A DNA stretch of 64,000 nucleotides from Lentibacillus jeotgali (lineage in GTDB: Bacteria; Bacillota; Bacilli; Bacillales; Amphibacillaceae), in assembly GCF_000224785.1 (NCBI RefSeq), contig NZ_AGAV01000019.1, positions 124,001 through 188,000 of the forward strand, in the 5' to 3' direction. Each line of letters starts with the position of its first letter. Positions within the stretch are counted from its first letter, which is position 1. A model generated the notes under the pieces. It searched no databases. It saw only the letters and a program-made list of their open reading frames with translations, and was not told where the DNA came from. Positions 31,101 to 37,015 of this stretch are shown piece by piece. The position numbers and the translations under genes are program-made.

Positions 31101-31600
31101 CCATAAACTGCGACGTAGTGACAGGGTTGATTTCTGCTTCGGGTAGTTGCTTTTCCCGCAGGAGTCAACTGCCCTTCGCTCCAATAAACGCTATTTTAGC
31201 GCAGTGTATTTTGTTCACGATTTCTTGGTAAAGCATAGAAGCTCGATTTAAGTACAAGGAATTCTCGCGCGAAATTCGGAGAGCCATTTCGCGATTTTAT
31301 GCAATCCCCGCGCGAAATTCAGAGGGTGTCGCGCGATTTTGTACAATCCTCGCGCGAAATTCGGAGAGCCATGCGCGATTTTATGCAATCCCCGCGCGAA
31401 TTTCAGAGCACCCCACGATCTTGTGCCGCCTCCACCAAATCTGCTTCGAGTTGCGAGGACGTATGCTGCACCAAAATGACTTGCAACGCGACGAGCATAA
31501 AGCACGAGGAGGCTCACCAGACGCCCTAAGGTGCGCGTAGTGTATTTCCGAAGCGGTGTTTAAACGCACAAATTTTCACTATATCGCATTTTATATCAAC
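31101..31600. repeat. Composite interspersed repeat region with inverted ends
   Basis: The left end CCATAAACTGCGACG matches the left end of the 19288 element; the right end (CGCATTTTATATCAAC, 31585-31600) matches its right end in diverged form. A shared internal block, TTGTTCAC followed by TCTTGGTAAA, is at 31211-31233. The right third (about 31440-31560) is a minus-strand copy of the module seen at 36895-37015, with CACGAGGAGGCTCACCAG. Tandem repeats lie in the middle. No real gene is present. Confidence 0.6.
31266..31430. repeat. Tandem array, four units of 42-43 bp
   Basis: Units begin at 31266, 31309, 31351 and 31393 with CGCGCGAA(A/T)TTC. Each has a second half starting near CGCGATTTT, so the real period is about 21 bp. 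Translated, it gives spurious 14-residue repeats on both strands. It is too short and too regular in spacing for a CRISPR array. Confidence 0.7.
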
Positions 31601-33497: not shown

Positions 33498-33539
33498 CTG
33501 CTAATGGTTTGGATATTTTGAGAAGGAGGTCCCGGCCAA

Positions 33540-33599
33540 GAGTGAAAACTTCAGCTCGAGAAAGAAAACTTCACCCCGAAAAGAAAATCCCCGCCCGAA
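33540..33599. repeat. Three degenerate 20-bp tandem units
   Basis: Units at 33540, 33560 and 33580 read GA(G/A)(T/A)GAAAACTTC(A) then G/C-rich. They lie between the AbgT terminator and the yitT gene end. Their reverse complement carries GAAGTTTTC after a CGGGG/CGAGC block, like the units at 13506. Confidence 0.45.
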
Positions 33600-33639
33600 T
33601 AGAAATTCATCTTATGAATGGCACATTAAACCTCGTCAG

Positions 33640-34473
33640 TTACCTCCCCTTATAGCCTTTCCGGAAAATTTCCTGGACGGGATGAACGGTGACATATGCA
33701 TCTGGGTCAATGTCGGTGATGATTTTTCGAAACGGTACTATTTCATACCGGCTGATGACCAGGTAGAGAACTTCCCTCTGTGCTCTGGTATAACCGCCTT
33801 GTCCTTCCAATACCGTTATACCGCGGGCCATTTTATTCGTAACAGCGTCAAGAACCTCGTCAGGGGAGCTGGAAATAATCATGACTGCTGTTCGTTCATT
33901 GGCACCTTCGACCACAACATCAATAATTTTTGCCCCGACATAAACGGAAACAAGTGTGTACATAGCGCGTTCCTGACCGATAATAAACGCTGAACCGGCA
34001 ATGACAGCAATATCGATGATCAGCATGCCCTTGCCGATGGTCCATCCAAATGCCTGGCTGGCGAGCCGGGCAAGGATGGCTGATCCACCTGATGTCCCTC
34101 CTGACCGGAAAATCAGACCAAGGCCGAGACCCACCCCAAGGCCTGCGAACAAGGCTGCCAACAGCATGTCATCATTGATCTCAGATCCCCAATCGACGGT
34201 GATATGCAAGAACAGGGATGTGAAAATAATGCCGAGAATCGTATAGATAGTGACACGTTTTTCAAAAAACTTATAGCCGAATGCGACCAGTGAGGAGTTC
34301 AGCACAAAGTTAACAATGCCGGGGGACCAATCGAACAGATAATAGGTGACAATGGTTATCCCGATGACACCGCCTTCCGATAATCGGTTCGGGATGGCGA
34401 AATAATTAACTCCGATTGCAAATATAAACGATCCAATGATAATCATACATACATCGCGAATTGTTTGATTCAT
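33640..34473 (-). CDS. YitT-family membrane protein
   Basis: 277 aa. Five or six membrane helices (DUF161) with GGVIGITIV and FRSGGTSGGSAIL, followed by the cytoplasmic DUF2179 domain (about 200-277, GITVLEGQGGYT). The function of this family is not established. GGAGGG lies before the ATG. On the minus strand it follows the chimeric MmgE/PrpD frame, whose end overlaps its start by 4 bp, but a strong terminator at 34631 should separate their transcripts. Confidence 0.87.
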   Translation of the reverse strand: MNQTIRDVCMIIIGSFIFAIGVNYFAIPNRLSEGGVIGITIVTYYLFDWSPGIVNFVLNSSLVAFGYKFFEKRVTIYTILGIIFTSLFLHITVDWGSEINDDMLLAALFAGLGVGLGLGLIFRSGGTSGGSAILARLASQAFGWTIGKGMLIIDIAVIAGSAFIIGQERAMYTLVSVYVGAKIIDVVVEGANERTAVMIISSSPDEVLDAVTNKMARGITVLEGQGGYTRAQREVLYLVISRYEIVPFRKIITDIDPDAYVTVHPVQEIFRKGYKGR

Positions 34474-36161
34474 GTACAGCCCTCCTTCGCGGACAATGAC
34501 GTATTCAAAATAATCTGCTGTCTATTATAACGAAACCTTAACCGTTTGAGAAATGGAGAGGGTTGAATGAGGGGCTTATTCACATTAATTCGCGCGATAG
34601 CTTTATATATTGCAAGCGGCTTCCGTAAACCAAAAAACAACCGGGCACTAAATTGTGCCCGGTTGTCAACAGCTCCAGTATACTTATTCATCTTCATTAA
34701 ACGTAATGACACGTCCCCACAAGTCCTTGGTGCCCCAGATGCCGCGGCGGAGCACCTCCAGCTGGACGATCTGGCTGTGATCAACAAACACGTTGACTTC
34801 AGGTCCATAGTTTCCGTTAATTCGCTGATGTGCACATTTTCCAGATTCTTAATAGTATCCGCAATTTTTGCAGCGAGTGTACTGTCGATGTCCCGTGTCA
34901 GTTTATTATATTTTTCCATCAGGACATCCCAGCTGGCAGGCTGTGTTTTGAAGCCCTGGTAATCGCGTTTTTCAACATTAAAAATCCGTCCGTCTTGTGT
35001 TTCAAGTTCGATCCGGCATGCCATTTCATCCGGGAAGCGGCTGCTGTATTCATCATTCGGTTGAACGTCAACTTTTTGCAGCAGATCCTGGATGTCATCA
35101 CGCATGATGCGTTCCGGTTCATATTGTTCGGGCATAACCTGACCATCAAGATAGGCTGCTGCCAGCATATACGGGAGTGAATGATCGGCCTCTTCTTTGT
35201 ATCGGATCAATTTCTTGCTGCCTTCTTCGCCACCACCAATAATGTTATAGGCAACATCAAAAGTTGTGAGCCGTATTTCTTTAATGTTTTCCGGTTTTAT
35301 ATTTTCGAGGCTCCGAATCTCAAGCAGACCTTCAATGGAAGATTGTGAGTGAATTTCGGCATTGAAGCGTTTGATGATTGTATCGGTAACACGTTCAAGA
35401 TCTTCTTTTTCCCAGTTGATTGTAAAATCGTCTGCAATCGAATCCATAAGGCCTTTATTACCTTCAAAAACTTCCCTCGGACCAGTAATGCCGTACTTGG
35501 CAAGCATGCTTGCATGAACTGCTCCCATTGCCGTATTCGGATATGCGAGACCTTTCCAATTTGACAATTCACCGGTTCGCGTTACTCTGAGTGAATTGTA
35601 GCCTGTGCCAGCGATTGAAATCGCATTGGCAATTTGGCTGCTATGAAGCTTCATTGCTCGTGCCGCTCCGGCTGCAGCACCGTATGCCCCCTGCACGGTA
35701 TGATCAAAACCGTGCTTCCGGGCAGGTGCCACATCTGACAAACGGCATTGCACTTGATAAGCAACGGCCAGTGCCAGCAGGAAGTCCTTTCCGCTCGTAC
35801 CGGCATACTCAGCAGCAGCTAACACAGGTGCAATGTTATTGGATGGGTGTCCGGTTTCTTCTTTTGCTAGATATGAATCATTGAAGTCAGGGTAGCGGAC
35901 AGCCGCTCCGTTGTAAAATGTAGCATAATCAGGTGTCGTTTTGCCACCGCCGATTAGCGTGACATGTGATTCATCGCCGAGATGCTCTGTCATCCGGCGA
36001 ATATTTCTGACCGGTTCACCATTAAGTGCACCGATTGCTGTACCGACTGAATCCAGTACACGCCCCTTCAATCCTTCCTTTGCCTCATCGGAGAGGCTAT
36101 TCCAATCGACACTGTGCGCCCATTCGGCTAGCTGTTCGACCATCGTTTTTTCGCTTGACAC
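34470..36161 (-). CDS. MmgE/PrpD family protein with a chimeric tail (3' deletion fusion)
   Basis: Residues 1 to about 449 are a nearly full-length MmgE/PrpD protein (2-methylcitrate dehydratase/cis-aconitate decarboxylase superfamily), with YPDFNDSYLAKEETGHPSNN, HGFDHTVQGAYGAAAGA and SQSSIEGLLEI. From about LTETM the frame enters the 3' end of a different gene in the wrong register and runs about 115 codons more, through a terminator and into the yitT start. The start is GTG 36161, 5 nt after GGAGGTGA. The dehydratase core may still fold. The last codons lie beyond the terminator at 34631-34666, so the normal message would have no stop codon. Confidence 0.8.
   Translation of the reverse strand: MSSEKTMVEQLAEWAHSVDWNSLSDEAKEGLKGRVLDSVGTAIGALNGEPVRNIRRMTEHLGDESHVTLIGGGKTTPDYATFYNGAAVRYPDFNDSYLAKEETGHPSNNIAPVLAAAEYAGTSGKDFLLALAVAYQVQCRLSDVAPARKHGFDHTVQGAYGAAAGAARAMKLHSSQIANAISIAGTGYNSLRVTRTGELSNWKGLAYPNTAMGAVHASMLAKYGITGPREVFEGNKGLMDSIADDFTINWEKEDLERVTDTIIKRFNAEIHSQSSIEGLLEIRSLENIKPENIKEIRLTTFDVAYNIIGGGEEGSKKLIRYKEEADHSLPYMLAAAYLDGQVMPEQYEPERIMRDDIQDLLQKVDVQPNDEYSSRFPDEMACRIELETQDGRIFNVEKRDYQGFKTQPASWDVLMEKYNKLTRDIDSTLAAKIADTIKNLENVHISELTETMDLKSTCLLITARSSSWRCSAAASGAPRTCGDVSLRLMKMNKYTGAVDNRAQFSARLFFGLRKPLAIYKAIARINVNKPLIQPSPFLKRLRFRYNRQQIILNTSLSAKEGCT
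34631..34666 (-). terminator. Strong terminator inside the chimeric PrpD reading frame
   Basis: Perfect 12-bp stem ACAACCGGGCAC with GTGCCCGGTTGT, 6-nt loop, followed on the minus strand by TTTTTTGG. It lies 17 bp after the stop of the phosphosulfolactate-synthase remnant and was probably that gene's terminator. Confidence 0.88.
34684..34815 (-). pseudogene. 3' remnant of a phosphosulfolactate synthase-like (ComA/HSA32 family) gene
   Basis: In the frame one register from PrpD, the minus strand reads GNYGPEVNVFVDHSQIVQLE, then VLRRGIWGTKDLWGRVITF, and stops at 34684. The VNxFVDHSQxxxLExLR block is the C-terminal signature I know from the ComA family and plant HSA32 proteins. Only about 43 codons remain; the rest was lost in the deletion that joined it to the prpD gene near 34813. 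Family assignment is from memory of motif, not a search. Confidence 0.6.
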
Positions 36162-36397
36162 GTGAATCACCTCCAAAATGTGTTCGAAATCCCGTCTTAA
36201 CGGCTAGTGCAAATCTCCGTTTTTTGAATACTAATTAAATCATACTAAATACTTATATAAAGTGATAAGTTTAGGTTTGCAATTGTGGCATAAGCGCAAA
36301 TAAGCTTTTGTAATGACATAAAGTTCCCCGGTGAAGCCAGTACTGATTTTTCTGTCTGCGTAATAAAATGGTATTAGAGATCTGCGGGAGGGCTTCG

Positions 36398-36838
36398 ATG
36401 CGGAAAATAGCTGTTATCCTTGTCGTGTTAATCGGTGGTGCTGCAGTGTTTTTGTTTTTACATCAATCAAATGAACAACAAGCAGCTGAAGCGGCTTCAG
36501 CATTTTATGCGTATGAACAGGACGGGAATTTTTCAGATTCGTGGGAGATGTTTCATCCATTAATGAAAGAGAAGTTTGACAAAATCGATTACTTGCAGGA
36601 TCGTGCGCATGTGTTTATGGATCATTTTGGTGTGGATACTTTTAGTTTTTCGGTTGGGGAAACGACGGAAATCGAGGACTGGGCGTTTGAAAATGATGCG
36701 GACACGATAGATACCGTTTATCAGGTGCCCGTCATACAAGTGTTCAAAGGAAGGTACGGGAATTTCACTATAACGCAAAATGTATTCGTAACTGACGTTG
36801 AAGGTGAATGGAAAGTGCTCTGGAATTACAAAAAATGA
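36398..36838 (+). CDS. Membrane-anchored protein with NTF2-like region, function unknown
   Basis: 146 aa. An N-terminal hydrophobic segment (residues 5-23, IAVILVVLIGGAAVFLFL) acts as anchor or signal. The outside part has EQQAAEAASAFYAYEQDGNF, then DSWEMFHPLMKEKF and ends in EGEWKVLWNYKK. This pattern (helix, acidic sheet, WKVLW end) is common in secreted NTF2-like domains of Bacillus. ATG 36398 lies 6 nt after GGGAGG. No close family name was recognised. Confidence 0.7.
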   Translation: MRKIAVILVVLIGGAAVFLFLHQSNEQQAAEAASAFYAYEQDGNFSDSWEMFHPLMKEKFDKIDYLQDRAHVFMDHFGVDTFSFSVGETTEIEDWAFENDADTIDTVYQVPVIQVFKGRYGNFTITQNVFVTDVEGEWKVLWNYKK

Positions 36839-36894
36839 AGGGGCTGAGCCAAAGAGTTTTTATAATCTGATGTAAGCAGAAAATATGGTTAGTG

Positions 36895-37015
36895 ATACAA
36901 CACGCTCCGGAAATATACTTCGCGCACCTTAGGGGGCTGGTGAGCCTCCTCGTGCTTTATGCACGTCCCGTTGCAAGTCATTTCGATACAGCATACGTTC
37001 CTCGCAAGTGGCCAA
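36895..37015. repeat. Copy of the interspersed repeat module (plus orientation)
   Basis: CGGAAATATACTTCGCGCACC, then GGGGGCTGGTGAGCCTCCTC and GTTGCAAGTCATTT match the minus-strand copy at about 31440-31560 almost throughout. It is a solo module without the CATAAACTGCGAC end. Confidence 0.6.

Follow-up and report, generated by a model that had tools for sequence, protein, structure and literature searches.

What becomes of a gene whose reading frame runs through a transcription terminator before it reaches a stop codon? The question is raised by a gene of the MmgE/PrpD family, called prpD here, in a window of 64,000 nucleotides (nt) from Lentibacillus jeotgali (positions 124,001 to 188,000 of contig NZ_AGAV01000019.1; G000:C13:124001-188000, G000 being the source genome). 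In this window, to which all coordinates refer, a deletion has joined prpD to the tail of a neighbouring comA-like gene, and the first in-frame stop codon of the extended frame lies beyond the terminator inherited from comA. The sequence probably describes a fresh loss of both prpD and comA, in which the deletion fusion gives rise to a non-stop messenger RNA (mRNA) that is cleared by trans-translation.

Deletion between prpD and comA

Close prpD genes, taken as those with at least 75% identity, were found in 13 of the 60 genomes searched, including the source genome, the others holding distant matches (29% identity or less; one short match of 32%) or none. An intact comA-like gene stands directly behind prpD in all of the 12 relatives so identified (11 from the genus, with G030 from another), and in all 12 this neighbour passes the Pfam ComA cut-off. 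A search of the 12 genomes of the genus with 401 bases around the junction gave a continuous match in the source genome only. Each of the other 11 returned two separate matches, the first ending at query base 179–189 and the second starting at 188 or 189, with a shorter first match (28–107) in G005.

The missing DNA amounts to 740 nt in comparison with five relatives (L002, L003, L004, L006 and L012), 741 nt with three (L005, L010 and L013) and 744 nt with L007. These sizes, and the other comparisons of nine relatives below, leave out L008, L009 and L011, where the motif used to find the comA tail had no match, though tblastn finds the tail there. On these comparisons the event is an illegitimate deletion of about 740 bp, which cost prpD its 11–14 end codons and comA all but its last 42. 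Since 740 is not divisible by three, prpD reads the comA remnant in the wrong frame. The sequence-only reading, which had located the join near 34813 and had described a prpD frame deprived of its own stop and running into a comA tail of another frame, is borne out by the junction, by the relatives that keep both genes and by the off-frame TAA (34686–34684) of the remnant. The remnant itself is recognisable, with 34815–34684 corresponding to positions 215–242 of the 243 of Pfam ComA (E 2.3e-7).

Collapse of a repeat as the source of the junction is rejected for want of homology, only 2 nt being common to both sides. Simple replacement by the other comA-family gene of the genome (C25) is unlikely, this gene being 26% identical to the lost type. 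Separately, a further comA remnant, interrupted by a TAA, occurs at G030:C11:1090666-1090749, in a genome that also keeps an intact prpD-comA pair.

The extended frame

The minus-strand open frame that ends at 34470 comprises 568 amino acids (aa) from a TTG at 36176 or 563 from a GTG at 36161. Of the two starts the GTG is preferred, having GGAGGTGA, a standard ribosome-binding site, immediately 5' of it. Pfam matches cover MmgE_PrpD_N at residues 9–250 and MmgE_PrpD_C at residues 266–440, both above the curated cut-off (238.2 and 135.7 bits against 32.1). The core enzyme had been called otherwise complete, which is right for the two domains and wrong for the C-terminus with its missing codons. 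A frame finder reports the fusion as a complete protein of 563–568 residues; annotation could look for terminators ahead of the called stop. The TGA of the frame also overlaps the ATG of the downstream YitT-family gene (ATGA, 34473–34470), an overlap regarded as chance. The coordinates of the features are collected in Table 1.

Table 1. Features of the prpD-comA fusion and its surroundings in the window.
Feature	Position	Strand	Remarks
Whole extended frame, 563 codons	34470..36161	-	First in-frame stop TGA 34472-34470
Coding region of the MmgE/PrpD family, with GTG start and about 450 native codons	34812..36161	-	Ancestral last 11-14 codons gone
Deletion junction GG/AA/A	34811..34814	-	2 nt microhomology (AA); about 740 nt missing against relatives
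comA-family gene remnant, last 42 codons and TAA stop	34684..34812	-	Frame differs from that of prpD
Intrinsic terminator inherited from comA	34635..34668	-	Now within prpD frame; U tract to about 34630
Promoter-like match TTATCA-18-TATGAT ahead of prpD	36239..36268	-	9/12; weak, consensus match only
Downstream YitT-family gene	33640..34473	-	Promoter-like site 34552-34524 ahead of it

The terminator within the frame

The extended frame contains a hairpin of 13 pairs, eight of them G-C, followed by a T run (34667–34636), about 1.5 kb into the frame and with about 55 codons to go before the stop. The region folds at -28.4 kcal/mol (z -6.9), and none of 200 shuffled sequences did as well. A strong intrinsic terminator within an open frame, with the stop codon 3' of it, is the arrangement of a non-stop gene of the brfA type. 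The sequence-only reading had put the terminator at 34631–34666, within four bases of where it was found, and had correctly placed the first in-frame stop beyond it.

A bare terminator match means little, since a loose scan of 33500–37000 gave six sites against 3.5 +/- 2.3 in shuffles. With stricter settings, 24 sites at -10 kcal/mol or below were found on both strands of the window, five of them within open reading frames (ORFs) of at least 150 aa. Among the 12 sites at -17 kcal/mol or below, the terminator at 34668–34635 is the sole one within an ORF, with the reservation that this cut-off was drawn after the table was seen and that at -14 three of 18 sites lie inside ORFs. Homology with the terminators of the relatives is the stronger argument for a real terminator. 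Behind comA, the ACAACCGGG...CCCGGTTGT hairpin recurs, unchanged or nearly so, in L002, L003, L004, L005, L006 and L007. A different hairpin follows comA in L012, and the ACAACCGGG...CCCGGTTGT hairpin is not evident after comA in L010 and L013. Short repeated motifs with GCGCGAAATT-like sequence were also seen after comA in L003, and similar-looking repeated peptide motifs occur in translations of 31248–31529 of the window.

How readily such a frame arises was estimated by attaching each of the three phases to every point within the final 60, 150, 300 or 750 nt of comA. Averaged over nine relatives, 16%, 12%, 7% and 3% of these joins, respectively, carried an open frame beyond the T run; for L010 and L013, the T run in question is 110–124 nt past the comA stop and may not be a terminator. 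For the remnant in the window 124 of 372 joins remain open, or one phase in three, so that, given a deletion ending in this stretch, there is nothing remarkable in the outcome. Among the nine relatives, only L006 has the same frame open beyond the terminator; in L003 and L013 this frame goes past the comA stop, then closes ahead of the T run. The arrangement is genuine, though it came about through luck.

Fate of the transcript and product

The following course of events is proposed. A deletion, apparently recent, removed the end of prpD and all of comA but 42 codons, and the shifted frame was left without a stop ahead of the old comA terminator. If prpD is expressed and the hairpin terminates efficiently, as we infer, transcripts that finish in the U tract (at about 34630, an estimate from the tract) would contain 510 complete codons but lack a stop. 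Ribosomes would then reach the 3' end and be rescued, chiefly by transfer-messenger RNA (tmRNA) and SmpB, with RqcH as back-up, and the tagged PrpD fusion would be degraded, so that both genes would in effect be lost.

The genome is equipped for this outcome, with one tmRNA match above the family cut-off, whose tag is GEKEETPALAAA, and genes for SmpB and RqcH. The behaviour of terminators in this group points the same way. In Bacillus subtilis, RNA polymerase is reported to outrun the ribosomes and terminators to lie a few nucleotides behind stops (PMC7858274), and a further account classes Bacillota as a phylum as runaway-transcription species (PMC13323073). The window and the loci of five relatives together hold 27 terminators at -14 or below, 16 of them outside ORFs and with a gene stop at most 150 nt upstream; in this small sample, 12 of the 16 begin 21 nt or less after the stop, a spacing that fits the signature described for runaway transcription. 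From these reports, the spacing, the example of brfA and the presence of the tmRNA, SmpB and RqcH genes, we therefore think that the fusion product would mostly be tagged and removed.

Several observations weigh against this account. The deletion is carried by a single genome, one of the 12 of the genus. The promoter-like match ahead of prpD agrees with the consensus at only nine of 12 positions and is within chance, the region holding nine such matches against 6.5 +/- 3.2 in shuffles, and expression of prpD may be low. In Escherichia coli, moreover, the trailing ribosome is reported to cause partial repression of terminators late in a coding region, one such terminator lying in a frame lengthened beyond it (PMC4824070), and because of this some readthrough to 34470 is possible.

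Taken further, this last point yields an alternative in which the ribosome on prpD follows closely enough behind RNA polymerase to block the hairpin; transcription would then run on, translation would stop at the TGA to give a 563-residue fusion, and some transcription would enter the YitT-family gene. The E. coli observations, together with the position of the hairpin so far into the frame, lend this alternative some substance. It is nevertheless judged unlikely, given the runaway-transcription class of the phylum and the short stop-to-terminator distances; the internal terminator of brfA is also reported to work in B. subtilis, though it lies only about 62 codons into the gene (PMC6881298). 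The fusion might serve as a natural, in-place test of transcription-translation coupling, with PrpD made or discarded according to the lead of RNA polymerase over the ribosome and the load on trans-translation, and appearing when rescue is saturated; such a role is highly improbable.

Age of the deletion and alternatives to a probable fresh loss

A fresh loss of the two genes is consistent with the state of the comA remnant. Over 36 codons, the window and L003 differ in 15 codons and in no amino acid, and the window differs from L002 and L004 in 16 and 15 codons, respectively, with one amino acid each. Across the nine relatives amino-acid differences range from zero to six, the highest value belonging to the most distant relative. 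Only two bases are unique to the window, both synonymous in the comA frame. Because long unconstrained drift would have given more amino-acid changes, the deletion looks recent relative to the divergence of the species, or limited to the sequenced culture, although the two unique bases are few and date it only loosely. For prpD, pairwise ratios of non-synonymous to synonymous substitution are 0.077–0.086 between the window and L002, L003 and L004 and 0.049–0.068 among these three, a slight elevation that leaves relaxed constraint undecided because most of the divergence probably predates the deletion.

The same freshness would also be expected if the deletion were absent from the population of the organism, either as an error of assembly or library or as a mutation of the one sequenced culture. 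A junction confined to one of the 12 genus genomes and a remnant that looks newly freed of constraint agree with this alternative. It is considered very unlikely all the same: the 2 nt common to the two sides make repeat collapse an unlikely source, and the site lies inside its contig, which continues for at least 158 kb in one direction and 29 kb in the other.

That prpD is silent, the arrangement never meeting a ribosome, would accord with the weak promoter-like match, but it is extremely improbable for a gene that has a standard ribosome-binding site and some 450 codons without a stop, aligning along their length with 12 relatives. The further idea that the arrangement is kept as regulation, as in brfA and arfA, with PrpD accumulating only if trans-translation fails, has in its favour the brfA-like anatomy of a terminator inside the frame and a stop beyond, but it is given virtually no credence and is rejected, the arrangement being unconserved within the genus, the same frame being open past the terminator in only one of nine relatives, the comA remnant bearing no mark of having spent time in a new role and the product being of the MmgE/PrpD family rather than a rescue factor. 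Overall, the distribution of the arrangement among the genus genomes and of the open frame among the relatives gives no sign of selection for the non-stop state.

Identity and neighbourhood of the lost pair

The name prpD stands at the level of the MmgE/PrpD family and is otherwise loose, the native part (447 aa) scoring far below the NCBIfam cut-offs for 2-methylcitrate dehydratase PrpD (152.7 of 950, 114.2 of 575 and 92.6 of 458 bits). Among its solved relatives, cis-aconitate decarboxylases are nearest in sequence, followed by 2-methylcitrate dehydratases. Likewise, the intact comA-like gene of L041 scores 101.2 of the 280 bits set for TIGR03849, the ComA phosphosulfolactate synthase of NCBIfam. 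With both proteins below the NCBI cut-offs for 2-methylcitrate dehydratase and archaeal ComA, the pathway cannot be named.

The pair itself is conserved beyond the genus. In 14 of 26 loci taken from named genomes, a comA relative lies near prpD and was matched over the greater part of its length. L060, L061 and L066 gave short comA matches only, and the remaining nine, the eight Streptococcus loci among them, gave none in the locus DNA searched. Neighbouring prpD-like and comA-like genes occur in several phyla (L045:3601-7377; L044, L046, L055, L057, L058, L062, L063 and L065), an adjacency that suggests a shared pathway, and in Aerococcus a citrate synthase gene stands beside the pair. In one Streptococcus locus (L048:7390-9896) the prpD-like gene adjoins PrpF and a gene of the CitMHS family, a citrate-transporter family. 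A literature search for phosphosulfolactate synthase with MmgE/PrpD found no papers.

Comparison with known systems

Ordinary deletion pseudogenes and gene fusions arise when an illegitimate deletion, needing little microhomology, joins two adjacent genes. In the present fusion, which shares this origin, the change of frame has additionally moved the stop beyond a terminator. A search on gene fusion, deletion, stop loss, tmRNA and non-stop mRNA returned, by its titles, no natural fusion of this kind, a statement confined to those matches, among which was the BrfA paper.

The non-stop mechanism as such is already precedented in brfA, arfA and engineered terminators, which, together with the occurrence in a single genome and the lack of any sign of selection, limits the significance of the locus. 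Its value is that of a clean natural case, in which one deletion makes a non-stop gene where terminators sit about 10–20 nt behind the stop. From arfA of E. coli it differs in that arfA is a rescue-factor gene with a regulated function, whereas the present case looks like a broken gene.

A close natural likeness is seen in the anatomy of brfA (yqkK) of B. subtilis, where an in-frame terminator ahead of the stop codon is described as giving a non-stop mRNA whose product is SsrA-tagged and degraded (PMC6881298; review PMC8012679). However, brfA, at 71 sense codons, codes for a rescue factor and is put to regulatory use, whereas here a metabolic-enzyme gene was brought to the same arrangement by a deletion. 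The engineered E. coli construct W38p, in which a red fluorescent protein (RFP) frame is extended past the terminator tR2, likewise has a late in-frame terminator with the stop beyond (PMC4824070). W38p is a plasmid construct, and its terminator efficiency is reported as down to 40% of the reference (PMC4824070), whereas the prpD-comA fusion is natural and belongs to a member of the Bacillota.
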